Shown in pieces: positions 32,435 to 40,749 of a DNA stretch of 60,821 bases. Source of the DNA: Lachnospiraceae bacterium (GTDB lineage Bacteria > Bacillota > Clostridia > Lachnospirales > Lachnospiraceae). The stretch covers positions 1-60,821 of the forward strand of contig JAIDOW010000012.1 of assembly GCA_029063085.1 (NCBI GenBank). The letters run 5' to 3'. Every line of letters begins with the position of its first letter. Position 1 is the stretch's first letter. Made by a program: the position numbers and the translations under genes. The notes under the pieces are model-generated. The model saw only the letters and a list, made by a program, of their open reading frames with translations, was not told the origin of the DNA and did no database searches.

Positions 32435-34195
32435 ATGGATACGAGAGAATACAAGACAACAGAACTTTTAAAAAGGTTTTTACCATATTACAAACCACAT
32501 ATGGGAACAGTTATACTGGATTTATTTTGTGCAGCACTGACGACTATCTGTGAACTGGTTCTTCCACTCATTATGCGATATATCACGAATGAGGGGATGA
32601 GGGATCTGGCAGCATTATCTGTCCGTATGGTGATGATGCTTGGCGGGATTTATTTTGTTTTGCGGATTGTGGACAGCATCGCCAATTACTATATGGCAGA
32701 TGTGGGTCATGTGATGGGGGCAAAGATAGAGACGACTATGAGAAGGGATGCATATTCCCATCTGCAAAAGCTTTCCAATACCTATTACAGTAATACTAAG
32801 GTCGGTCAGATTATGGGAAGGATTACCAATGATTTGTTTGATGTGACAGAATTTGCCCATCACTGTCCGGAGGAGTTTTTTATTGCGGCGATTAAGGCTG
32901 TGGTGGGATTTATCATTTTGTCCGGAATTAATTTTTGGCTTACATTAATAATCTTCTGCATTGTTCCAGTGATGTTTTTTACCTGTATGACATTAAATCG
33001 TAAGATGAAAACGGCGTTTTCCAAGCAGAGATACCAGATTGGAGAATTAAATGCCCGTATTGAGGACAGCTTATTAGGGCAGAAGGTGGTAAAGGCATTT
33101 ACCAATGAGGAGATGGAGAACGGGAAGTTTGCTGCTGACAATCAGAAGTTCTTTGAGATTAAAAAAGAGAGTTACAAATATATGGCGGCATTTCAGACGA
33201 CTACGAGAATGTTTGATGGCATCATGTATCTTTCCGTTATAATAGGCGGCGGTATTTTTATGGTGAAGGGGCTGATTCAGCCGGGAGATTTGGTGGCATA
33301 TATGCTTTATGTTACTACGCTGATTGCTACCATCAGGCGAATTATCGAGTTTGCCGAGCAGTTTCAGCGGGGAATGACAGGAATTGAACGCTTTTTGCAG
33401 ATTATGGATGCAGATATTGATATTTTTGACGAGGAAGGGGCTGTGCCATTAGAAAGGGTAGCGGGTGATATAGAGTTTGAGAACGTGAGTTTTGAGTATC
33501 CCGATGACCATAATGAAGTTTTTTCTAATCTGAATCTGTCTATCAAAGCGGGAGAGCGGGTTGCCATCGTAGGTCCGTCAGGCGGCGGGAAGACTACGCT
33601 TTGTAATCTGATTCCGAGATTTTATGATATTGATTCAGGCTGTATCAGATTGGACGGCAGGAATATCAAAGAATTTACACTGAAGAGCTTAAGGCAGCAT
33701 ATTGGCATTGTCCAGCAGGATGTGTATCTGTTTTCGGGAACAGTATATGACAATATAATCTATGGCAGGCCGGATGCTTCCAGAGAAGAGGTAATGGTGG
33801 CGGCAAAGCTTGCAGGAGCAGATGCATTTATACGGGAGTTAAAGAACGGATATGATACCTATATCGGGGAGCGTGGTGTGAAGCTGTCCGGCGGGCAGAA
33901 GCAGCGGATCAGTATTGCGAGGGTATTTTTAAAGAATCCACCGATTTTAATTTTAGATGAGGCAACTTCCGCACTGGATAACGAGAGTGAATTTGAAGTG
34001 GCAAAATCTCTGGTAGAATTATCGGAGGGCAGGACGACCCTTACCATTGCCCACAGATTGTCCAGTATCCGGAATTCTGACCGTATTCTGGTGCTGACAG
34101 AGGAAGGTATTGTGGAGGAAGGAAGCCATGATGAACTGATGAGAAAACAGGGTATGTATTATGAGTTTTATACGATGGCAGATAAGTGGCAGTAG
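32435..34195 (+). CDS. ABC exporter (MsbA/LmrA-type half-transporter)
   Basis: This encodes 586 residues. An N-terminal six-helix type I exporter domain (about 20-320) precedes a nucleotide-binding domain (about 340-575). Motifs are Walker A GPSGGGKTT, Q-loop IVQQDVYLFSG, signature LSGGQKQR, Walker B ILILDEATSALD and the H-loop in IAHRLSS. It should act as a homodimer, because no partner half-transporter is adjacent. The YLFSGTVYDNI segment is typical of lipid and multidrug exporters. The ribosome binding site is GTGAGGT. Cardiolipin synthase follows 83 bases downstream, so a lipid link is possible but unproven. Confidence 0.93.
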   Translation: MDTREYKTTELLKRFLPYYKPHMGTVILDLFCAALTTICELVLPLIMRYITNEGMRDLAALSVRMVMMLGGIYFVLRIVDSIANYYMADVGHVMGAKIETTMRRDAYSHLQKLSNTYYSNTKVGQIMGRITNDLFDVTEFAHHCPEEFFIAAIKAVVGFIILSGINFWLTLIIFCIVPVMFFTCMTLNRKMKTAFSKQRYQIGELNARIEDSLLGQKVVKAFTNEEMENGKFAADNQKFFEIKKESYKYMAAFQTTTRMFDGIMYLSVIIGGGIFMVKGLIQPGDLVAYMLYVTTLIATIRRIIEFAEQFQRGMTGIERFLQIMDADIDIFDEEGAVPLERVAGDIEFENVSFEYPDDHNEVFSNLNLSIKAGERVAIVGPSGGGKTTLCNLIPRFYDIDSGCIRLDGRNIKEFTLKSLRQHIGIVQQDVYLFSGTVYDNIIYGRPDASREEVMVAAKLAGADAFIRELKNGYDTYIGERGVKLSGGQKQRISIARVFLKNPPILILDEATSALDNESEFEVAKSLVELSEGRTTLTIAHRLSSIRNSDRILVLTEEGIVEEGSHDELMRKQGMYYEFYTMADKWQ

Positions 34196-34278
34196 CGCAG
34201 GGAAATGCTGTCAATTCAAGGAAGCAAAGTGTATAAAAAGATACAGAAAGATAATGGTTAGACGGAGGAGGAAGCTTC

Positions 34279-35853
34279 ATGGAAAATGAAGAAAGTACAG
34301 GGGTGTATCTGTTAAAAAAGGGAAAGAAAGGTCTGGTCAGTATGGTATTCAGCCGTTTGGGACTGATACTGGTATTGTTTTTGATACAGGCATTTTTTCT
34401 GCTTTGTGCTTTCTGGTGGTTTAGTGAATTTCTTCCTTATATTATGGGAAGTACGGTAGTCTTTACGATTATTATGATAATCTATCTGTTTAACTGTGAT
34501 TTTGAATCGGAGGTAAAGCTGACATGGCTCATGGTGATTATGCTGCTTCCGGTATTTGGTGCGATTTTTCTGCTCTATACCAGAATGGATATCGGACACC
34601 GGGTGATCAAGGAAAGACTCGGGTATATGATTGAGGAGACAAAGGAAAGTATTCCGCAGTCTGGGGAAGTCATGCAAAAACTAAAAGCAGAAAATGCAGA
34701 GAGCGCGGCATTAACCCATTACATAAACCGGACAGGCTGTTATCCTGTATATGAAAATACACAGGTAACATATTTTCCGCTGGGGGAGGATAAATTTCAG
34801 GAACTGCTGGTACAGCTGGAACAGGCGAAACATTTTATTTTTCTGGAGTATTTTATTATAGCGGAAGGTGTGATGTGGGGAAAAGTACTGGAAATATTGG
34901 CGAAGAAGGCAAAAGAGGGGGTTGAGGTCAGAGTGCTGTATGACGGTACCTGTGAATTTTCCACACTGCCCCACGACTATCCAAAACGGCTAAAAAAGCT
35001 TGGAATACAATGTAAAGTGTTTGCGCCGCTGACTCCTTTTGTATCCACGCATTATAATTACCGTGACCACCGCAAGATTCTGGTCATAGACGGGCATACA
35101 GCATTTAACGGCGGGGTGAATCTGGCAGATGAATATATTAATCATATAGAAAAGCATGGGCACTGGAAGGATACTGCGGTAATGCTGAAGGGAGAGGCAG
35201 CTGCCAGTTTTACCCTGATGTTTTTGCAGATGTGGAATCTGGATGAGAAGACAGCGCAATTCAAAAAATATATAGATGTTCCGGCAGAAAATAAGCAGGA
35301 TGCAAAAGGGTATGTGCTTCCCTTTGGAGATTGCCCGCTGGATCGCGATAAAGTGGGAGAACGTGTATATATGGATATTCTCAACCAGTCGAAGCATTAT
35401 GTACACATCATGACACCGTATCTGATTCTGGACGGAGAAATGCAGGCAGCACTTGCATTTGCGGCAGAACGGGGAATCGATGTGAGAATTATCCTGCCGG
35501 GGATACCCGATAAAAAGATACCCTATGCTCTGGCAAAAACACATTATGCAGCATTATTAAAATCGGGAGTAAAGATTTATGAATATATACCCGGTTTTGT
35601 GCATGCCAAGGTATTTGTCAGTGATGACAGTAAGGCTGTGGTGGGTACGATCAATCTGGATTACAGAAGTCTTTACCATCATTTTGAGTGTGCAACTTAT
35701 ATGTGTCATACAAAATGTATTTCTGATATCGAAGAAGATTTTCAAAAAACCCTTACGAAATGCAGGAAGGTAACAATGGAAACCACATTAAAGAGAGGGA
35801 TTATAACAAAATTGACAGGATATATTGCAAAGGCACTGGCACCGCTGCTGTAG
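34279..35853 (+). CDS. cls: Cardiolipin synthase
   Basis: This encodes 524 residues. Two N-terminal membrane helices (about 22-42 LGLILVLFLIQAFFLLCAFWW, then YIMGSTVVFTIIMIIYLF) and a third hydrophobic stretch (LMVIMLLPVFGAIFLL) precede two phospholipase-D domains. The HKD motifs are HYNYRDHRKILVIDG...FNGG in the first and HAKVFVSDD...GTINLDYRS in the second. The enzyme condenses two phosphatidylglycerol molecules to cardiolipin and glycerol at the membrane. The length fits the bacterial Cls family (about 480-525). The ribosome binding site is GACGGAGGAGG. A strong terminator follows. Confidence 0.95.
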   Translation: MENEESTGVYLLKKGKKGLVSMVFSRLGLILVLFLIQAFFLLCAFWWFSEFLPYIMGSTVVFTIIMIIYLFNCDFESEVKLTWLMVIMLLPVFGAIFLLYTRMDIGHRVIKERLGYMIEETKESIPQSGEVMQKLKAENAESAALTHYINRTGCYPVYENTQVTYFPLGEDKFQELLVQLEQAKHFIFLEYFIIAEGVMWGKVLEILAKKAKEGVEVRVLYDGTCEFSTLPHDYPKRLKKLGIQCKVFAPLTPFVSTHYNYRDHRKILVIDGHTAFNGGVNLADEYINHIEKHGHWKDTAVMLKGEAAASFTLMFLQMWNLDEKTAQFKKYIDVPAENKQDAKGYVLPFGDCPLDRDKVGERVYMDILNQSKHYVHIMTPYLILDGEMQAALAFAAERGIDVRIILPGIPDKKIPYALAKTHYAALLKSGVKIYEYIPGFVHAKVFVSDDSKAVVGTINLDYRSLYHHFECATYMCHTKCISDIEEDFQKTLTKCRKVTMETTLKRGIITKLTGYIAKALAPLL

Positions 35854-35943
35854 CTGTTATTTCATATAAGGTACTTTTGATGCAAGGCATTATATTTGTC
35901 ATGATTGATATAAACTGGCACAACAGATCAAAAAAAACAAATA

Positions 35944-35982
35944 AAAAATCCGCTTATCCCTGAATCAGATAAGCGGATTTTT
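35944..35982. terminator. Intrinsic terminator between cls and the MFS gene
   Basis: AAAAATCCGCTTAT and ATAAGCGGATTTTT form a perfect 14-bp stem with an 11-base loop. A/T runs on both sides allow use by both convergent genes. Confidence 0.9.
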
Positions 35983-36003
35983 GTTGTGCTTAATGTATGA
36001 TTT

Positions 36004-37296
36004 CTATTTTTCTAACTCCCATATATGCTTATTTTGCCTAAAATACAGACAAACTCCGATTCCTGCAAAGGCGATTACAAAAAATAAAAATGCCGCACCG
36101 GAGCCTTTGCCGTTTCCAAATAGCTGTACCGGAATACTATTTTCAGGCTGCCTGGTCATAATCGGTTCGAATACCCGGTCCACTAAAAATCCACCCAGAA
36201 AATATCCAATTGGTATGGTAAAAAACTGCAATGAATTTCTTACAGAGTATACCCTGCCCTGCATTTGTTCCGGTATATGTAAACGCATGATCGCATCCAG
36301 ATTGGTACTCATCAACGGGATAAAAATCCAGCCGAGAAATCCACCAATACACCAGATAAGAGGTGTTTTGCCAAATGCAAGCAGGAAGTTTTCAGTACTC
36401 ATGGAAAACAGCAGACAGTTGCAGATTACGCTGACGCGGCTTTTTGGTGTTTTCATAAAAGATGCCAGTATGCTTCCTGCAAAGGTGGTGATACCGATTA
36501 CTGCATTGACCAGTCCCAGTACTTTTTCGCTTCCGCCGTTTCTGGAAAGCATCATTGCTGGAAAAGCCGCATCATAGATGGATGCCACCAGATTGATTGC
36601 TGCCAGAAACAGAATCAGATTAAAAATTCCCTGTTCCTGTTTTAAGTAATTAATACCTTTCTTTACGGAAACCAGAAGATTTTCAGATGTTTCTATACTA
36701 TTGGAATCTTCTGGAATACGGATTCCCAATGCCAGCGTGCCAAATGCAATGCAAAAGGTGAACAGGTCAAAAGCAATTACGGCTCCCATACCCGCCATGC
36801 CTAAAACAGCCGTAGCGATGATGGGTGTCATAACGGAATTAAGGGAACTGGAAAAGTATCTTAAGCCGCCTACCCGCTGGTAGTATTTCTTGGGAAGCAC
36901 TTTTGTGGTCGCAACCTCCGATGCCGGTTGCTGTACGGTATTCATGAGTCCGTTTACCGCATTGATGACATAAAGATGCCAAATCTGTAAAGTGCCGCTT
37001 TGTAATAAGAATAGCATAATAATTGTTGTCAACGCAGCAACAGAGTCACATACCAGCATGGTAATTTTCTTATTCCATTTATCACTCAGAGCCCCTGCGA
37101 AAATGCTGAGAAGAACATAAGGTGCATAGGAACTTACCATTAAAAGTGCTGTTATGAGTGCGGATCCTTTTTGTGTATAAGACCAGATAACCAGTGCATA
37201 GCTGGTCATGGCACTGCCAAGACTGGAAAATGACTGGGTGATCCAAAGCAGTAAAAATGTTTTTGTTTCTTTGATTATATTTATATGATTTTTCAT
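36004..37296 (-). CDS. MFS efflux transporter, MefA-like (DHA3 group)
   Basis: This encodes 430 residues from the ATG at 37296, behind AGGAG. The frame is open to 37407, but that part overlaps a separate leader ORF in another frame. About 12 membrane helices are visible. The N-terminal half (FLLLWITQSFSSLGSAMTSYALVIW...SYAPYVLLSIFAGALSDKWNKKITMLVCD) matches the layout of macrolide-efflux MefA-type MFS proteins. It includes the loop-2 motif GALSDKWNKK, equivalent to G...DR.GRR. The substrate is not determined. A leader peptide and alternative hairpins just upstream suggest that expression is induced through ribosome stalling. Confidence 0.88.
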   Translation of the reverse strand: MKNHINIIKETKTFLLLWITQSFSSLGSAMTSYALVIWSYTQKGSALITALLMVSSYAPYVLLSIFAGALSDKWNKKITMLVCDSVAALTTIIMLFLLQSGTLQIWHLYVINAVNGLMNTVQQPASEVATTKVLPKKYYQRVGGLRYFSSSLNSVMTPIIATAVLGMAGMGAVIAFDLFTFCIAFGTLALGIRIPEDSNSIETSENLLVSVKKGINYLKQEQGIFNLILFLAAINLVASIYDAAFPAMMLSRNGGSEKVLGLVNAVIGITTFAGSILASFMKTPKSRVSVICNCLLFSMSTENFLLAFGKTPLIWCIGGFLGWIFIPLMSTNLDAIMRLHIPEQMQGRVYSVRNSLQFFTIPIGYFLGGFLVDRVFEPIMTRQPENSIPVQLFGNGKGSGAAFLFFVIAFAGIGVCLYFRQNKHIWELEK

Positions 37297-37440
37297 AGAC
37301 TTTGCTCCTATCTCAATATTTAGGTGATTGAAATCTGCAAAGTCCCTGAACAGTTTATCTACTCCATGCAATCCTGTTCGAAAAGACTTTGCATGGAGCT
37401 GCTGCAATACATAAAATCATGATTGGCTGCCTCCTTTATC
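37297..37440 (-). promoter_or_regulatory. Translational-attenuator-like leader of the MFS gene
   Basis: On the minus strand, four segments can pair in two exclusive ways. Segment 1 (CTCCATGCAA, continuing to GCAAAGTC; 37385-37398) lies inside the leader ORF. Segment 2 (TTGCATGGAG; 37362-37371) pairs perfectly with segment 1 over 10 bp. Segment 3 (CTGTTCAGGGACTTTGCA, about 37334-37351) can pair with segment 1 through GACTTTGCA plus CTGTTC. It can also pair with segment 4 (GCAAAGTC; 37298-37305), which sits between the AGGAG site and the ATG of the MFS gene. The 3:4 pairing would mask translation start. This is the architecture of erm/cat-type drug-inducible attenuators. Confidence 0.7.
37355..37420 (-). 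CDS. 21-residue leader peptide upstream of the MFS efflux gene
   Basis: The ORF starts with ATG at 37420, nine bases after a near-perfect AAAGGAGG site, and ends with TAA at 37355-37357. It encodes 21 residues (beginning MILCIAAAPCKVF and ending NRIAWSR). The stop lies 58 bases before the MFS start codon. Its codons contain both arms of a 10-bp hairpin, and one arm can instead pair with the region controlling the MFS ribosome binding site. The peptide does not match an Erm leader that I know. A role in ribosome-stalling control is inferred from the strong initiation site and the RNA pairing. Confidence 0.65.
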   Translation of the reverse strand: MILCIAAAPCKVFSNRIAWSR

Positions 37441-37472
37441 ATTATTTTTTCATTTATTAATCATAATTTAAA

Positions 37473-37501
37473 ATTTTATCATAATTATTTATGTCGGACA
37501 A
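37473..37501 (-). promoter_or_regulatory. Probable promoter of the leader peptide-MFS transcript
   Basis: On the minus strand, TTGTCC (37496-37501) and TAAAAT (37473-37478) are spaced by 17 bases, about 50 bases upstream of the leader ATG. The rest of the region to 37699 holds no gene that I can support. Confidence 0.5.
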
Positions 37502-37699
37502 GTAAAAAGAGAAGGGGTGGTCGTCCTGCCTTTTTTGATACCATTGTTTTGCTTCTTTTCTTTTTTTATTGTTTTATAAAATGACGGATGCACAGTGTAT
37601 AGTATTTGTCAAAAGGATTTCTCGACAATTACAATCTGTGAGTGGATACATTAGAAAAAGAATATCACGAATAAGGATAAAAAATATCTGTATTAAGTC

Positions 37700-37728
37700 T
37701 TGACACGATGGTCTACTGGCTGTAAAAT
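37700..37728 (+). promoter_or_regulatory. Promoter of the blaI-M56 operon
   Basis: Consensus TTGACA (37700-37705) and TAAAAT (37723-37728) are separated by 17 bases. Transcription would start near 37735, directly at the BlaI-type operator. Confidence 0.75.
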
Positions 37729-37736
37729 AAAAATGT

Positions 37737-37755
37737 ATTCTACTACTAGTAGAAT
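37737..37755 (+). promoter_or_regulatory. BlaI/MecI-type operator
   Basis: ATTCTACTACTAGTAGAAT is a 19-bp near-perfect palindrome containing TACTA and TAGTA half-sites, as in BlaI-family operators. It covers the predicted transcription start and lies 14 bases before the blaI ATG. This supports autorepression. Confidence 0.75.
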
Positions 37756-37769
37756 AAAAGGAGGATAAC

Positions 37770-38126
37770 ATGACCGAATATAAGTTAGGCGAAGTAGAGA
37801 TGAAATTTGCAGATATTATATGGGAGAATGAACCCGTTACATCAAGGGAGCTGGCAAGGATTAGTGAAGAGAAGCTCAATTGGAAAAAGTCTACTACCTA
37901 TACAATTTTGCGTAGGATTTGTGACAGAGGATTATTTCAGAATGAGAATGGGACAGTAACGTCAAATGTATCTAAGGAGGAATTTTTTGCGAAGCAGAGT
38001 GAAAAATTTGTGGAAGATACCTTTGATGGTTCCCTTCCTAAATTTGTAGCTGCCTTTACTTCAGGAAAGAAGCTGAGCAGGCAGGATGTAGAAGAGATAC
38101 AAAGGATTATTGACCAGAGTAAGTAG
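37770..38126 (+). CDS. blaI: BlaI/MecI-family winged-helix repressor
   Basis: This encodes 118 residues. The N-terminal winged helix (KLGEVEMKFADIIWENEPVTSRELARISEEKLNWKKSTTYTILRRICDRGLFQNENG) fits the BlaI/MecI/CopY family. The C-terminal part (EEFFAKQSEKFVEDTFDGSLPKFVAAF) is the dimerisation region where the partner protease normally cleaves. It starts after AAAGGAGG and is followed ten bases later by an M56 peptidase gene. A palindromic operator overlaps the promoter. It probably represses its own operon until the membrane protease is activated. The target signal is unknown. Confidence 0.93.
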   Translation: MTEYKLGEVEMKFADIIWENEPVTSRELARISEEKLNWKKSTTYTILRRICDRGLFQNENGTVTSNVSKEEFFAKQSEKFVEDTFDGSLPKFVAAFTSGKKLSRQDVEEIQRIIDQSK

Positions 38127-38136
38127 GAGAAGAGGA

Positions 38137-39807
38137 ATGAGAGCATTTTTGATTCAATTGGGAATCAGGAGTTTGCAGACTTCTGTCATTATCTGTGTGA
38201 TATTTGTCGTGCGGAAGATATTTGATAAAATGAATTTATCCAAAAAGTATACCAATATTTTGTGGAGTATTCCCTATTTATGTATGATATTACCGTGGAA
38301 GATAGAGAGCAGGTTCAGTTTTTGGAAACTGTATAGCCTGGTCGTGGAAAAGAGACCAGACGCGGTTTTACGTGCAGATATGCAGACTACAGAATATATA
38401 TCGAATCTGGATATTCCGGTAACGGTGCCATATCAAAAAACGGAGACTGCCAGTACTTTCGTGGCAGCAGGGAAAGAAGCTCCTGATTTATTTACCGTGC
38501 TTTTTTTGATTTGGGCAGCCGGTGTGTGTATTTTTATTTTATATAACCTGCTTTCGTATTACAGGACATATCGCAGTCTGCTTTGCAGTGTATGTCTGAA
38601 AGATAATATTTTTCTGGCGGACGATATATGTCTTCCCTTTGTATTTGGTTTTTTTAAACCCAGGATTTATCTGCCATCCCATATGAAAGAAGTGTATGTA
38701 AGATATGTTGTGGAGCATGAAAAAACGCATATCCAGCGCAAAGATTATCTGAAAAAAATGCTTGCACTATGGATAACTGGTATCTATTGGTTTCATCCTT
38801 TTGCATGGATAGCTTTTGAGTTTATGTGTGTGGATATGGAAATGGCCTGTGATGAAGATGCGGTTCAAAATATCGGGATTGATAAAAGAAAAAGGTATGC
38901 GGAAGCATTGCTCAACTTTTCGGAGAGAAAAGCATATTTGCAGTCAACATTTTTGGCATTTGGGACTGGGAATGTAAAGGAGAGAATATGCAATATATTA
39001 AAGAATAAAAAGAGGCATGGCATATGTAATGTATTTGCCATTTTTGCCGCTGTGGTGCTTATGCTTGGATTTTTAACGGTAGAAAAGCGGATTGTAAAAG
39101 CAGATATAAGCACGAATACCAGTATACTGAAAGAAGCTTCCGAAGGGGAAGAATCTTTTGAAAACGAAGAAGAAGGAAAAGACAGGGGGACAGAGGAGAA
39201 GAGCAATGTTGTGAAAAATAGTCCGGCAGAACATAGCCCCGGTTTTAAAGAAGTGAAACTGCACCTGTATATTCCGCAGAATATGCTGGATCTGGGATAC
39301 GTCACAAAAGGACTTTGGCCAGAAGAGGATATGGAACGTCTGGCACAGCAGGCAATGCGTGAGCTCTATGACCTGACTGGGACACAGGTGGAGGAATGTT
39401 ATTATTATGCAGCGGACATCGGTTGTTTCTATTTTGCCATGTCAAAAGATGATATGGATCATAGCAGGAATTTTTGTACGAGACAGTTTTCGGATGATGA
39501 AAGGGTAATTCCGTCAATCTATGTAGCAAATGCAAAACAGGTATCCTATTCCATGGTAGATATGCAGGTATTACCTGAGGGATATGAAGGGATGACGGAA
39601 AAAGAGAGAGCGGAATGGTTTGTGACGCATTCGGGGATGTATAACGGTCAGAGCGTGAAGATGGTTTATCAGCCTTATGACTGGAATTACAAGATATGGC
39701 ATGTGGTTATGGAGGATGATTCCGCATATGAGATTATTTTGGAGCAGGGCATGGACGGTTTTTCCGGTATTACAGGACCTTACCCGGATAGTGAAATCAG
39801 CCATTAA
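38137..39807 (+). CDS. M56-family membrane metalloprotease (BlaR1-like) without penicillin sensor
   Basis: This encodes 556 residues from the ATG at 38137, behind GTAGGAGAAG. An upstream in-frame start at 38110 overlaps blaI. N-terminal membrane helices surround a cytoplasmic gluzincin domain with HExxH as HEKTH (VVEHEKTHIQRKDYL), then IYWFHPFAWIAFEFMCVDMEMACDEDAV as in BlaR1/MecR1. After a further helix (VFAIFAAVVLMLGFL) comes an acidic linker and an extracellular C-terminal domain of about 170 residues. That domain has no SxxK, SDN or KTG motifs, so it is not a beta-lactam sensor. It probably senses another envelope signal and cleaves the BlaI-type repressor. Confidence 0.88.
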   Translation: MRAFLIQLGIRSLQTSVIICVIFVVRKIFDKMNLSKKYTNILWSIPYLCMILPWKIESRFSFWKLYSLVVEKRPDAVLRADMQTTEYISNLDIPVTVPYQKTETASTFVAAGKEAPDLFTVLFLIWAAGVCIFILYNLLSYYRTYRSLLCSVCLKDNIFLADDICLPFVFGFFKPRIYLPSHMKEVYVRYVVEHEKTHIQRKDYLKKMLALWITGIYWFHPFAWIAFEFMCVDMEMACDEDAVQNIGIDKRKRYAEALLNFSERKAYLQSTFLAFGTGNVKERICNILKNKKRHGICNVFAIFAAVVLMLGFLTVEKRIVKADISTNTSILKEASEGEESFENEEEGKDRGTEEKSNVVKNSPAEHSPGFKEVKLHLYIPQNMLDLGYVTKGLWPEEDMERLAQQAMRELYDLTGTQVEECYYYAADIGCFYFAMSKDDMDHSRNFCTRQFSDDERVIPSIYVANAKQVSYSMVDMQVLPEGYEGMTEKERAEWFVTHSGMYNGQSVKMVYQPYDWNYKIWHVVMEDDSAYEIILEQGMDGFSGITGPYPDSEISH

Positions 39808-39852
39808 GGGTGTATAGGTAGAGATTATAATTATCAGAAGGGAGATATGGAT

Positions 39853-40749
39853 ATGAATAAGAAGATAATGTTAACCGGTGTACTATGGATGCTGTTATTT
39901 ATGCTGTGGGGATGTCAGGCAAATAAGTCAGAAGATAAACGGGTGCTGAAAAGCACACAAGCCAGAGAGGAAACTACAGTTACCACAGGCATAGAAAATA
40001 GTGTTCAAACAGAGAATGAAACGGAAGAAACAACTCCAAACAGTACAGAAGGGACAGAAGAACCGATGCATACAGAGGCGGCATTACCGGAAAACAAAGG
40101 AAATCAGGAAAATGTCACTGACAATAGAAGATCTGTTTACGCAGACATATTGAAAAATATTTATTCCAATCAGGTTTTTCCTGATGGCAGGGATTATGGA
40201 TTTGATGATACCGACATTGCGAAAAATAAATTTGCGATTTATGATATAGATGGGGATGGAAAAGAGGAGCTGATCATACAATATATCACTACAATCACAG
40301 CAGGAAATATAGAATTAATTTATGATATGGCCAGTGATTCCAAGACAGTCAGGGAAGAATTTTCAGAATTTCCGGCGCTTAAGTTTTATGATAATGGAAT
40401 GGTAGAAGCTGAATGGTCACATAATCAGGGGCGGGGCGGAGAATTCTGGCCATATACCTTGTATCAGTATGACCGGGAGACGGACACTTATGTTACGGTG
40501 GGAATGGTGGATGCATGGGATAAATCGTTGTCGGAAACAGATTTTAATGGAGATGCCTTTCCGGAAGAGAAAGATTTGAATGGTGATGGTATCTTATATT
40601 ATATTATGCAGGAAGCCTCTTATGATCAGAAAACGATAGTAGATATGGAAGAGTACAAGGAATGGAGGGATTCCTATCTCGGTAAGGCAGAGCAGATAAA
40701 CATTCCGTATAAGTATCTTACACATACAAACATAAGTGGTATCCGATAG
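39853..40749 (+). CDS. Lipoprotein with EF-hand-like Asp loops
   Basis: This encodes 298 residues if started at the ATG at 39853. The ATG at 39847 is too close to the GGAG site. A signal peptide with lipobox LWGC gives Cys at about residue 21. A Thr/Glu-rich linker follows (to about 85). The C-terminal domain contains two calcium-loop-like motifs, YDIDGDGKEELIIQY and DLNGDGILYY, as seen in VCBS/FG-GAP-like secreted proteins of Clostridia. It lies 45 bases after the M56 gene and is probably the third gene of that operon. It could supply or bind the signal sensed by the protease's extracellular domain (inference). Confidence 0.8.
   Translation: MNKKIMLTGVLWMLLFMLWGCQANKSEDKRVLKSTQAREETTVTTGIENSVQTENETEETTPNSTEGTEEPMHTEAALPENKGNQENVTDNRRSVYADILKNIYSNQVFPDGRDYGFDDTDIAKNKFAIYDIDGDGKEELIIQYITTITAGNIELIYDMASDSKTVREEFSEFPALKFYDNGMVEAEWSHNQGRGGEFWPYTLYQYDRETDTYVTVGMVDAWDKSLSETDFNGDAFPEEKDLNGDGILYYIMQEASYDQKTIVDMEEYKEWRDSYLGKAEQINIPYKYLTHTNISGIR

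Follow-up and report, generated by a model that had tools for sequence, protein, structure and literature searches.

A conserved short leader peptide and predicted alternative RNA folds mark a putative translational attenuator before MFS efflux-type genes of Clostridia

Translational attenuation involving a stalled ribosome is described for ErmC (PMC13410324), and cat-86 is described as being induced by chloramphenicol stalling on its leader (PMC4191407). Leaders also precede ARE-ABCF genes. In the case of CplR, a ribosome site that is otherwise hidden was shown to become free upon stalling on the uORF (PMC10201436), and the same source describes a leader-controlled resistance gene in which transcriptional and translational control are joined. 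Control of mef/mel is reported as transcriptional attenuation (PMC4335068). uup RNA (Rfam RF03060) is found before ABC-F genes, and a 2024 review states that further evidence for a riboswitch function of this RNA is lacking (PMC11477304).

We analyzed a 60,821-nucleotide stretch of DNA (the window), one contig of the 3.3-Mb genome of a Lachnospiraceae bacterium, in which an element with a short leader ORF precedes the gene for an MFS efflux-type transporter of 430 amino acids (36004 to 37296; Pfam MFS_1 and MFS_3 above cut-off). All of its features lie on the minus strand. The first-pass annotation had listed a leader ORF with its own ribosome site, a 10-bp hairpin and two copies of GCAAAGTC able to pair with one GACTTTGC, and each of them lies where it had been placed. 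The Shine-Dalgarno site AAAGGAGG, read from the sequence, occupies 37430 to 37437 and is followed by the 21-codon ORF at 37355 to 37420 (MILCIAAAPCKVFSNRIAWSR; ORF list and sequence). Segment 1 (CTCCATGCAA, 37389 to 37398) and its partner, segment 2 (TTGCATGGAG, 37362 to 37371), form the arms of a perfect 10-bp hairpin. Segment 1' (GCAAAGTC, 37385 to 37392) overlaps the end of segment 1 and would pair with segment 3 (GACTTTGC, 37337 to 37344) once a ribosome covers segment 1. A further complementary strand, segment 1'' (GAACAG, 37379 to 37374), occupies the loop of that first hairpin, and its partner by the covariation test and a direct fold is segment 3'' (CTGTTC, 37353 to 37348). This pairing, absent from the first-pass annotation, joins the 1':3 pairing into a single long helix. 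Segment 3 has 1' as its predicted partner in the open state and segment 4 in the closed state, segment 4 being the second copy of GCAAAGTC (37298 to 37305), between the MFS ribosome site and the ATG (37296 to 37294). An apical hairpin at 37310 to 37334 (ATTTCAAT, 37334 to 37327; ATTGAGAT, 37317 to 37310) would prolong the 3:4 stem in the closed state. According to folding, the MFS Shine-Dalgarno sequence AGGAG (37305 to 37309) is in or beside this stem in the closed state and single-stranded in the open state. The fold energy of 37445 to 37270 is -45.6 kcal/mol, compared with -32.1 (sd 3.8) for 200 dinucleotide shuffles, none of which was as low (z-score, -3.6).

Like the ermC and cat-86 attenuators, the element combines a short leader ORF, hairpins that would hide the downstream ribosome site and a stalled ribosome that would release it. 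It differs from both in its leader peptide, in a computed early stall after about five residues and in its release helix, which is predicted to be an extended 1'+1'':3''+3 duplex with the 1'' strand in the loop of the first hairpin. In ermC, segment 2 pairs with segment 3, whereas the window element has no such 2:3 pairing. Stalling on the cat-86 leader occurs with codon 6 in the A site, as we propose for the window leader. The CplR, VmlR and Lsa uORFs are likewise leaders before ARE-ABCF genes but are very short (MR[I/M], MIN, MAGN), while leaders of the window type have 11 to 21 codons as a rule. The CplR uORF, moreover, acts jointly with a transcription terminator, whereas a consensus scan of 37250 to 37800 gave no terminator-like sites around the window element.

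uup RNA is the nearest Rfam family; a scan of the window and of 20 related loci gave no family at its gathering threshold. The first hairpin is similar (uup consensus, GCUCCGUACAA...UGUACGGAGC), but strands 3 and 4 and the downstream gene are different, and RF03060 scores 16.1 bits (opposite strand) and 14.4 bits on the window element against a gathering score of 36.8. The same genome has a uup RNA of its own above the cut-off (L164, G000:C7:17648-17695, minus strand; 65.2 bits). It lies before an ABC-F-like gene. By eye, it resembles the window element in lying in a short ORF and in having a loop, CCGATGAAA, complementary to a downstream TTTCATCGG; a terminator-like hairpin is visible further on. 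A literature search found no description of this leader or element by title or abstract, most subscription papers being outside its scope.

Related loci were collected with the pump protein alone as the starting query, which yielded 13 named loci. A search of 299 genomes of the family with this protein returned 57 at an E value of 1e-60 or better, and 30 loci, the window included, were fetched. The leader codons and the first hairpin are present in 11 of the 13 named loci and in 29 of the 30 family loci, counts that were partly read independently of the pairing filter described below; the 29 include one locus without a standard start codon (L036), one reduced form (L043) and one sequence identical to another (L022 to L008). 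The closest relative found, a Lachnospiraceae MAG, has a pump with 91% identity to that of the window. At an E value of at most 0.01, a covariance model built on the leader half of the element (R1) gave matches in 52 of the 299 genomes of the family and in 35 of 391 genomes of the class. Both sets contain the window's genome, and some matches are weak, of a second type (see below) or due to chance.

The resulting set comprises 64 unique elements before pumps of the window's group, the window included, nearly all from Clostridia: 38 came from protein searches and 26 from the R1 model. For the latter, counts are partly circular in the leader half but not in strands 3'', 3 and 4, which lie outside R1. 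The filter admitted loci with 8 or all 9 pairs formed in the first hairpin, and two loci that failed it were added by hand; first-hairpin pairing is therefore no evidence within the filtered set. Left out were loci without a complete element (L009, L010, L019, L156) or a missing pump start (L109), duplicates, and loci with no pump match (L082, L089, L092, L096, L097, L099 to L101, L149). Weak R1 matches judged to be chance or unclear were not used (L132, L137, L138, L139, L146, L157, L161). The element of L082 matches R1 strongly (60.5 bits), with no pump gene within the fetched stretch.

Several loci depart from the common arrangement. In Clostridium folliculivorans and C. zeae (L009, L010), there is no leader element and the pump gene lies directly behind an ABC-F gene, which in L009 scores above the cut-off of a ribosome-protection ABC-F model; GGAGCTAGGT persists before the pump ATG. 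The leader of L019 continues directly into the interior of the pump gene, as if by deletion, and locus L036/L151 (G177:C6) keeps all RNA strands and has ATA where the leader start codon should be. Two copies of the pump gene occur in a single genome (G288:C3 and G288:C37; L038, L102), and both come with an element of their own. A contig assigned to an uncultured Treponema MAG carries both pump and element (L013), through horizontal transfer or misbinning.

The leader peptide follows the consensus M-x-L-C-I-(A/V)-x-A-P-C-(K/R)-V-stop, and most of the relatives inspected have Shine-Dalgarno-like sites before it. Counted from the A of A-P-C, it ends after 5 or 6 residues in 60 of the 64 leaders and after 4 in two; only the window (14 residues) and L007 (23) have long leaders, the window leader lacking the usual early stop, which makes its 21 codons an unusual length. 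Leu3 is kept in 57 of 64 leaders with all six Leu codons in use. Ile5 is kept in 56, encoded by ATT in 55 of them, and its conservation could thus lie partly at the RNA level. Codon 4 specifies Cys in 41 of 64 leaders and Ala in 8, codon 6 is GNN (Ala, Val, Asp or Gly) in 63 of 64, and codons 2 and 7 vary freely. Codons 8 to 12 (A-P-C-K/R-V) show little variation except where RNA pairing permits, so that no peptide effect is needed for their conservation. The peptide MILCIAEAP is retained in a reduced variant (L098) despite a different stem and different following residues.

The three-strand layout was found in 61 of the 64 elements. Matched changes in the 1:2 stem include CTCTATGCA/TGCATAGAG, CTCCGTGTA/TACACGGAG, CTCCTTTTT/AAAAAGGAG and CTCCACGCA/TGTGTGGAG; 98.5% of the stem's cells are paired in alignment A1, where two of the pairs show changes in both partners. 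The pairing richest in matched changes is 1'':3'', with GAACAG/CTGTTC in the window, GAGCAG/CTGCTC in its nearest relative, and GGGCAG/CTGCCC, GGATAG/CTATCC, GAGGAC/GTCCTC and others elsewhere. Across the 61 three-strand elements, 1'' binds its own 3'' with a mean energy of -12.7 kcal/mol (range, -8.0 to -18.6), compared with -8.9 (sd 0.34; best, -10.4) for 5,000 permutations of the partners, a test that ignores relatedness among loci. In the permutation tests the own partner is rarely the strongest of all (1'':3'', 2 of 61 loci; 1':3, 4 of 61), and the window's own 1'':3'' duplex (-9.0) is among a few that are no stronger than the permuted mean. The 1':3 pairing has all 8 pairs in 52 of 61 elements, 7 in seven and 6 in two, strand 3 having been picked from CTTTG-like candidates by its pairing to 1', which favors high counts; 3:4 has 8 pairs in 41 elements, 7 in 8, 6 in 11 and 5 in one. 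The pairings kept in the 61 elements are those of two predicted, mutually exclusive folds, one of which would hide the pump ribosome site. If 1:2 and 1'':3'' were formed at the same time, the result would be a pseudoknot, since 1'' is a loop strand of the first hairpin. Reduced two-strand variants also occur (L043/L095, L094, L098), where the pump ribosome site itself serves as the second strand of the leader hairpin.

The order of switching, which the first-pass annotation had left unsettled, was computed by folding with and without a masking ribosome. RNA upstream of the ribosome or covered by it was removed, the covered part reaching up to 15 nt beyond the first base of the P-site codon, and the energy cost of opening the pump ribosome site and start codon was computed with a folding model without pseudoknots. 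The mean cost over the 61 elements is 8.1 kcal/mol with no ribosome and 8.6, 8.7 and 7.1 with the P site at codons 1 to 3. It drops to 4.4 at codon 4 and 3.9 at codon 5, is back at 8.3 at codon 6 and amounts to 10.6 to 11.3 at codons 7 to 13. For the window, the values are 9.8 without a ribosome, 5.6 at codon 5 and 14.8 at codon 12; in direct folds of the window, a ribosome at codon 5 gives the release helix and one at codon 12 the closed 3:4 stem. The minimum falls at codon 4 or 5 in 59 of 61 elements, and the dip averages 5.9 kcal/mol and exceeds 2 in 59 of 61, compared with an average of 0.5 (sd 1.0) and 14 of 183 for shuffled controls. Relative to ribosome-free RNA, the site is at least 2 kcal/mol easier to open at codon 5 in 51 elements and not in the other 10. 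The result for codon 5 is dependent on the assumed ribosome footprint: when the leading edge is placed 3 nt farther forward or back, the optimum ranges over codons 4 to 6 (21 of 61 loci). In the reduced variants L043, L094 and L098, the pump site opens from codon 5 onward, and codon 5 thus suits both designs. Codon 5 is also the end of the run of conserved peptide residues (Leu3-x-Ile5), so that the codon at which folding opens the switch coincides with conserved residues. The predicted stall site in the window accordingly has codon 5 (Ile, ATT, 37408 to 37406) in the P site and codon 6 (Ala, GCA, 37405 to 37403) in the A site (37403 to 37408, minus strand). Arrest near the leader end (A-P-C-K-V-stop) was considered and rejected, a P site at codons 8 to 13 leaving the pump site closed on average.

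We consider it likely that the element is a translational attenuator of the ermC/cat type with a different leader and different wiring. The closed state would be the default, during normal read-through of the leader as well: 1:2 would be formed and 3:4 would enclose the pump ribosome site and start codon, so that the pump would not be made. A ribosome stalled early on the leader, most likely by an antibiotic, would cover segment 1 and leave 1' and 1'' free; both would then be taken up with 3 and 3'' into a single long helix, which would release strand 4 and let the pump be translated. Complete translation of the leader would thus keep the pump off, and an early stall, probably at about codon 5, would turn it on. 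The pump may then export the drug that causes the stall.

The same switch could also serve amino acid starvation, with a ribosome waiting at a hungry Ile5 (P site at codon 4) and a pump that exports an amino acid or peptide. We regard this as unlikely: Ile5 is indeed present in 56 of 64 leaders and a P site at codon 4 is nearly as effective in opening the switch as one at codon 5 (4.4 and 3.9 kcal/mol), yet the codon table of the leader has a single Ile codon and no stretch in which one amino acid is repeated, Leu5 replaces Ile5 in two of the three CatA-like leaders (L092, L096), the leaders before Cfr and CD3324 genes are different peptides, and related elements sit before ribosome-drug resistance genes. 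Somewhat less probable still is a structured leader that senses a small molecule or protein directly, as a riboswitch or protein-binding RNA, with the ORF incidental. The strong conservation of the core CTCCATGCA/TGCATGGAG, even in second-type elements where its reading frame differs, would suit such a sensor, whereas the matched changes that the stem tolerates, the retention of Leu3 and Ile5 upstream of the stem and outside the named pairings, and the lack of an Rfam family at threshold in the window and 20 related loci speak against it.

Transcription attenuation, in which the alternative folds would govern a terminator before the pump, appears slightly more improbable again. The joining of both levels of control in other leader-controlled resistance genes, CplR among them (PMC10201436), and the hairpin with a T-rich tail seen by eye after the uup RNA of the window's genome make it conceivable, but the scan of 37250 to 37800 gave no terminator-like site, and it is the ribosome site and start codon that lie between strands 3 and 4. 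That the hairpins lie beside an ordinary short ORF by chance and regulate nothing is a negligible prospect: hairpins and short ORFs do abound (positions 34000 to 40500 are overlapped by 90 ORFs of at least 20 amino acids), but the relatives show conservation and matched changes, and the fold z-score is low. The observation is confirmed as real and lies far from chance. The proposal that leader and exclusive hairpins form an attenuator, which a lack of leader conservation or of compensatory changes in related strains would have undone, is well supported by the persistence of leader and first hairpin in loci found through the pump and by the many matched base changes.

The idea of a MefA-like pump in a macrolide-responsive system fared less well. 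The best NCBIfam model for the pump is TIGR00900, below its cut-off, and Mef and other efflux models match more weakly, all below theirs. The pump belongs to the same broad MFS group as Mef(A)/Mef(E), which also have an upstream leader (Mef(A) model, E value 4e-27), but it scores 95 bits against the Mef(A) cut-off of 675, and the Mef(A), (B), (C) and (En2) models together give 68 to 95 bits against cut-offs of 675 to 870. Identity as a Mef or macrolide pump was rejected on these scores, and CatA-like, Cfr, Lsa and Vat-like genes lie downstream of related elements. The profile matches make the pump a candidate drug-efflux-like MFS protein. Divergent from it, at 37770 to 39807 on the plus strand, are genes for a penicillinase repressor (BlaI/MecI type) and a BlaR1-type M56 peptidase; the near-palindrome ATTCTACTAGTAGTAGAAT at 37737 to 37755 may be an operator of this repressor.

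Closely similar RNA with other leaders, detected through weaker R1 matches and a second model (R2), occurs before several other kinds of gene. It precedes CatA-like acetyltransferases (L089, L092 and L096; L089 212 and L092 210 bits, cut-off 270), Cfr (L099, 678 bits, cut-off 468; L100 alike by eye), an Lsa-family ABC-F gene (L170, 760, cut-off 750), a MATE pump gene (L097, 226, cut-off 147; the L136 protein is similar by eye), an esterase-like gene (L149, below cut-offs) and many CD3324-family genes (L163, the one scored, 112, cut-off 65). L097 and L136 have MKLCI-type leaders and a stem that is altered yet still complementary (CTTCGTATA / TATACGAAG). Farther downstream of the CD3324 genes, Vat-like acetyltransferases are found in six loci: L140 and L158 scored below cut-off on partial fetched sequence, and L143, L145, L147 and L148 were assigned by eye. 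The elements of the Cfr, Lsa and CD3324 loci read the core in another frame (L-H-A-K or L-H-I-K); a model of these second-type elements (R2) matched in 8 of 291 class genomes. The window's own genome has one with the leader MCINKKRKNDASLHAKSVNVNAICME before CD3324-like and hydrolase-like genes (L129/L169; G000:C91:11014-11096, minus strand). With ribosome masking, the CatA-like and esterase-like elements open at codons 4 to 5, as pump elements do, and the two Cfr leaders dip at codon 9. The 13 second-type elements of CD3324 genes are mixed: the dip reaches several kcal/mol in L144 and L131 and is smaller in L130, L145 and L148, and the other 8 show no clear dip.

Drugs acting at the peptidyl-transferase center are common to CatA, Cfr, Lsa and Vat, and such drugs are therefore preferred over macrolides as the inducer; the company these elements keep points to peptidyl-transferase-center antibiotics as what may be sensed. 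The chloramphenicol/linezolid context rule, with Ala and less so Ser or Thr as the penultimate residue (PMC8987054), was weighed and fits only in part: with Ile5 in the P site, this residue is Cys in 41 of 64 leaders and Ala in 8, and Gly4 of two CatA-like leaders is a misfit.

A broader proposal, which we hold tentatively and rate just short of even, is that a single modular switch is reused across Clostridia by MFS, CatA-like, Cfr, Lsa ABC-F, MATE, esterase-like and CD3324/Vat-like genes, with the same three-strand logic and a potentially pseudoknotted clamp helix. The sensor would be swappable, the core being read in two frames (A-P-C-K and L-H-A-K), so that drug specificity would reside in the upstream peptide and switching in the shared chassis. 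The clamp borne by the loop would provide a toehold formed in advance, and zipping of the release helix would start there once the ribosome opens segment 1. Attenuation of the ermC/cat type is known; the leader peptide would be a new one, and a shared chassis read in two frames would be the most novel feature.

Inducible resistance to ribosome-targeting drugs is easily overlooked when resistance is predicted from gene content. If our reading is true, the elements would represent a widespread attenuator family of Clostridia and the leader a new arrest-peptide candidate, with conserved residues at the computed stall codon. Testable questions are thereby raised about drug-specific arrest by nascent peptides of only 4 to 5 residues and about the use of one RNA switch with different sensor peptides, and the identity of the inducer could hint at the substrate of the pump.
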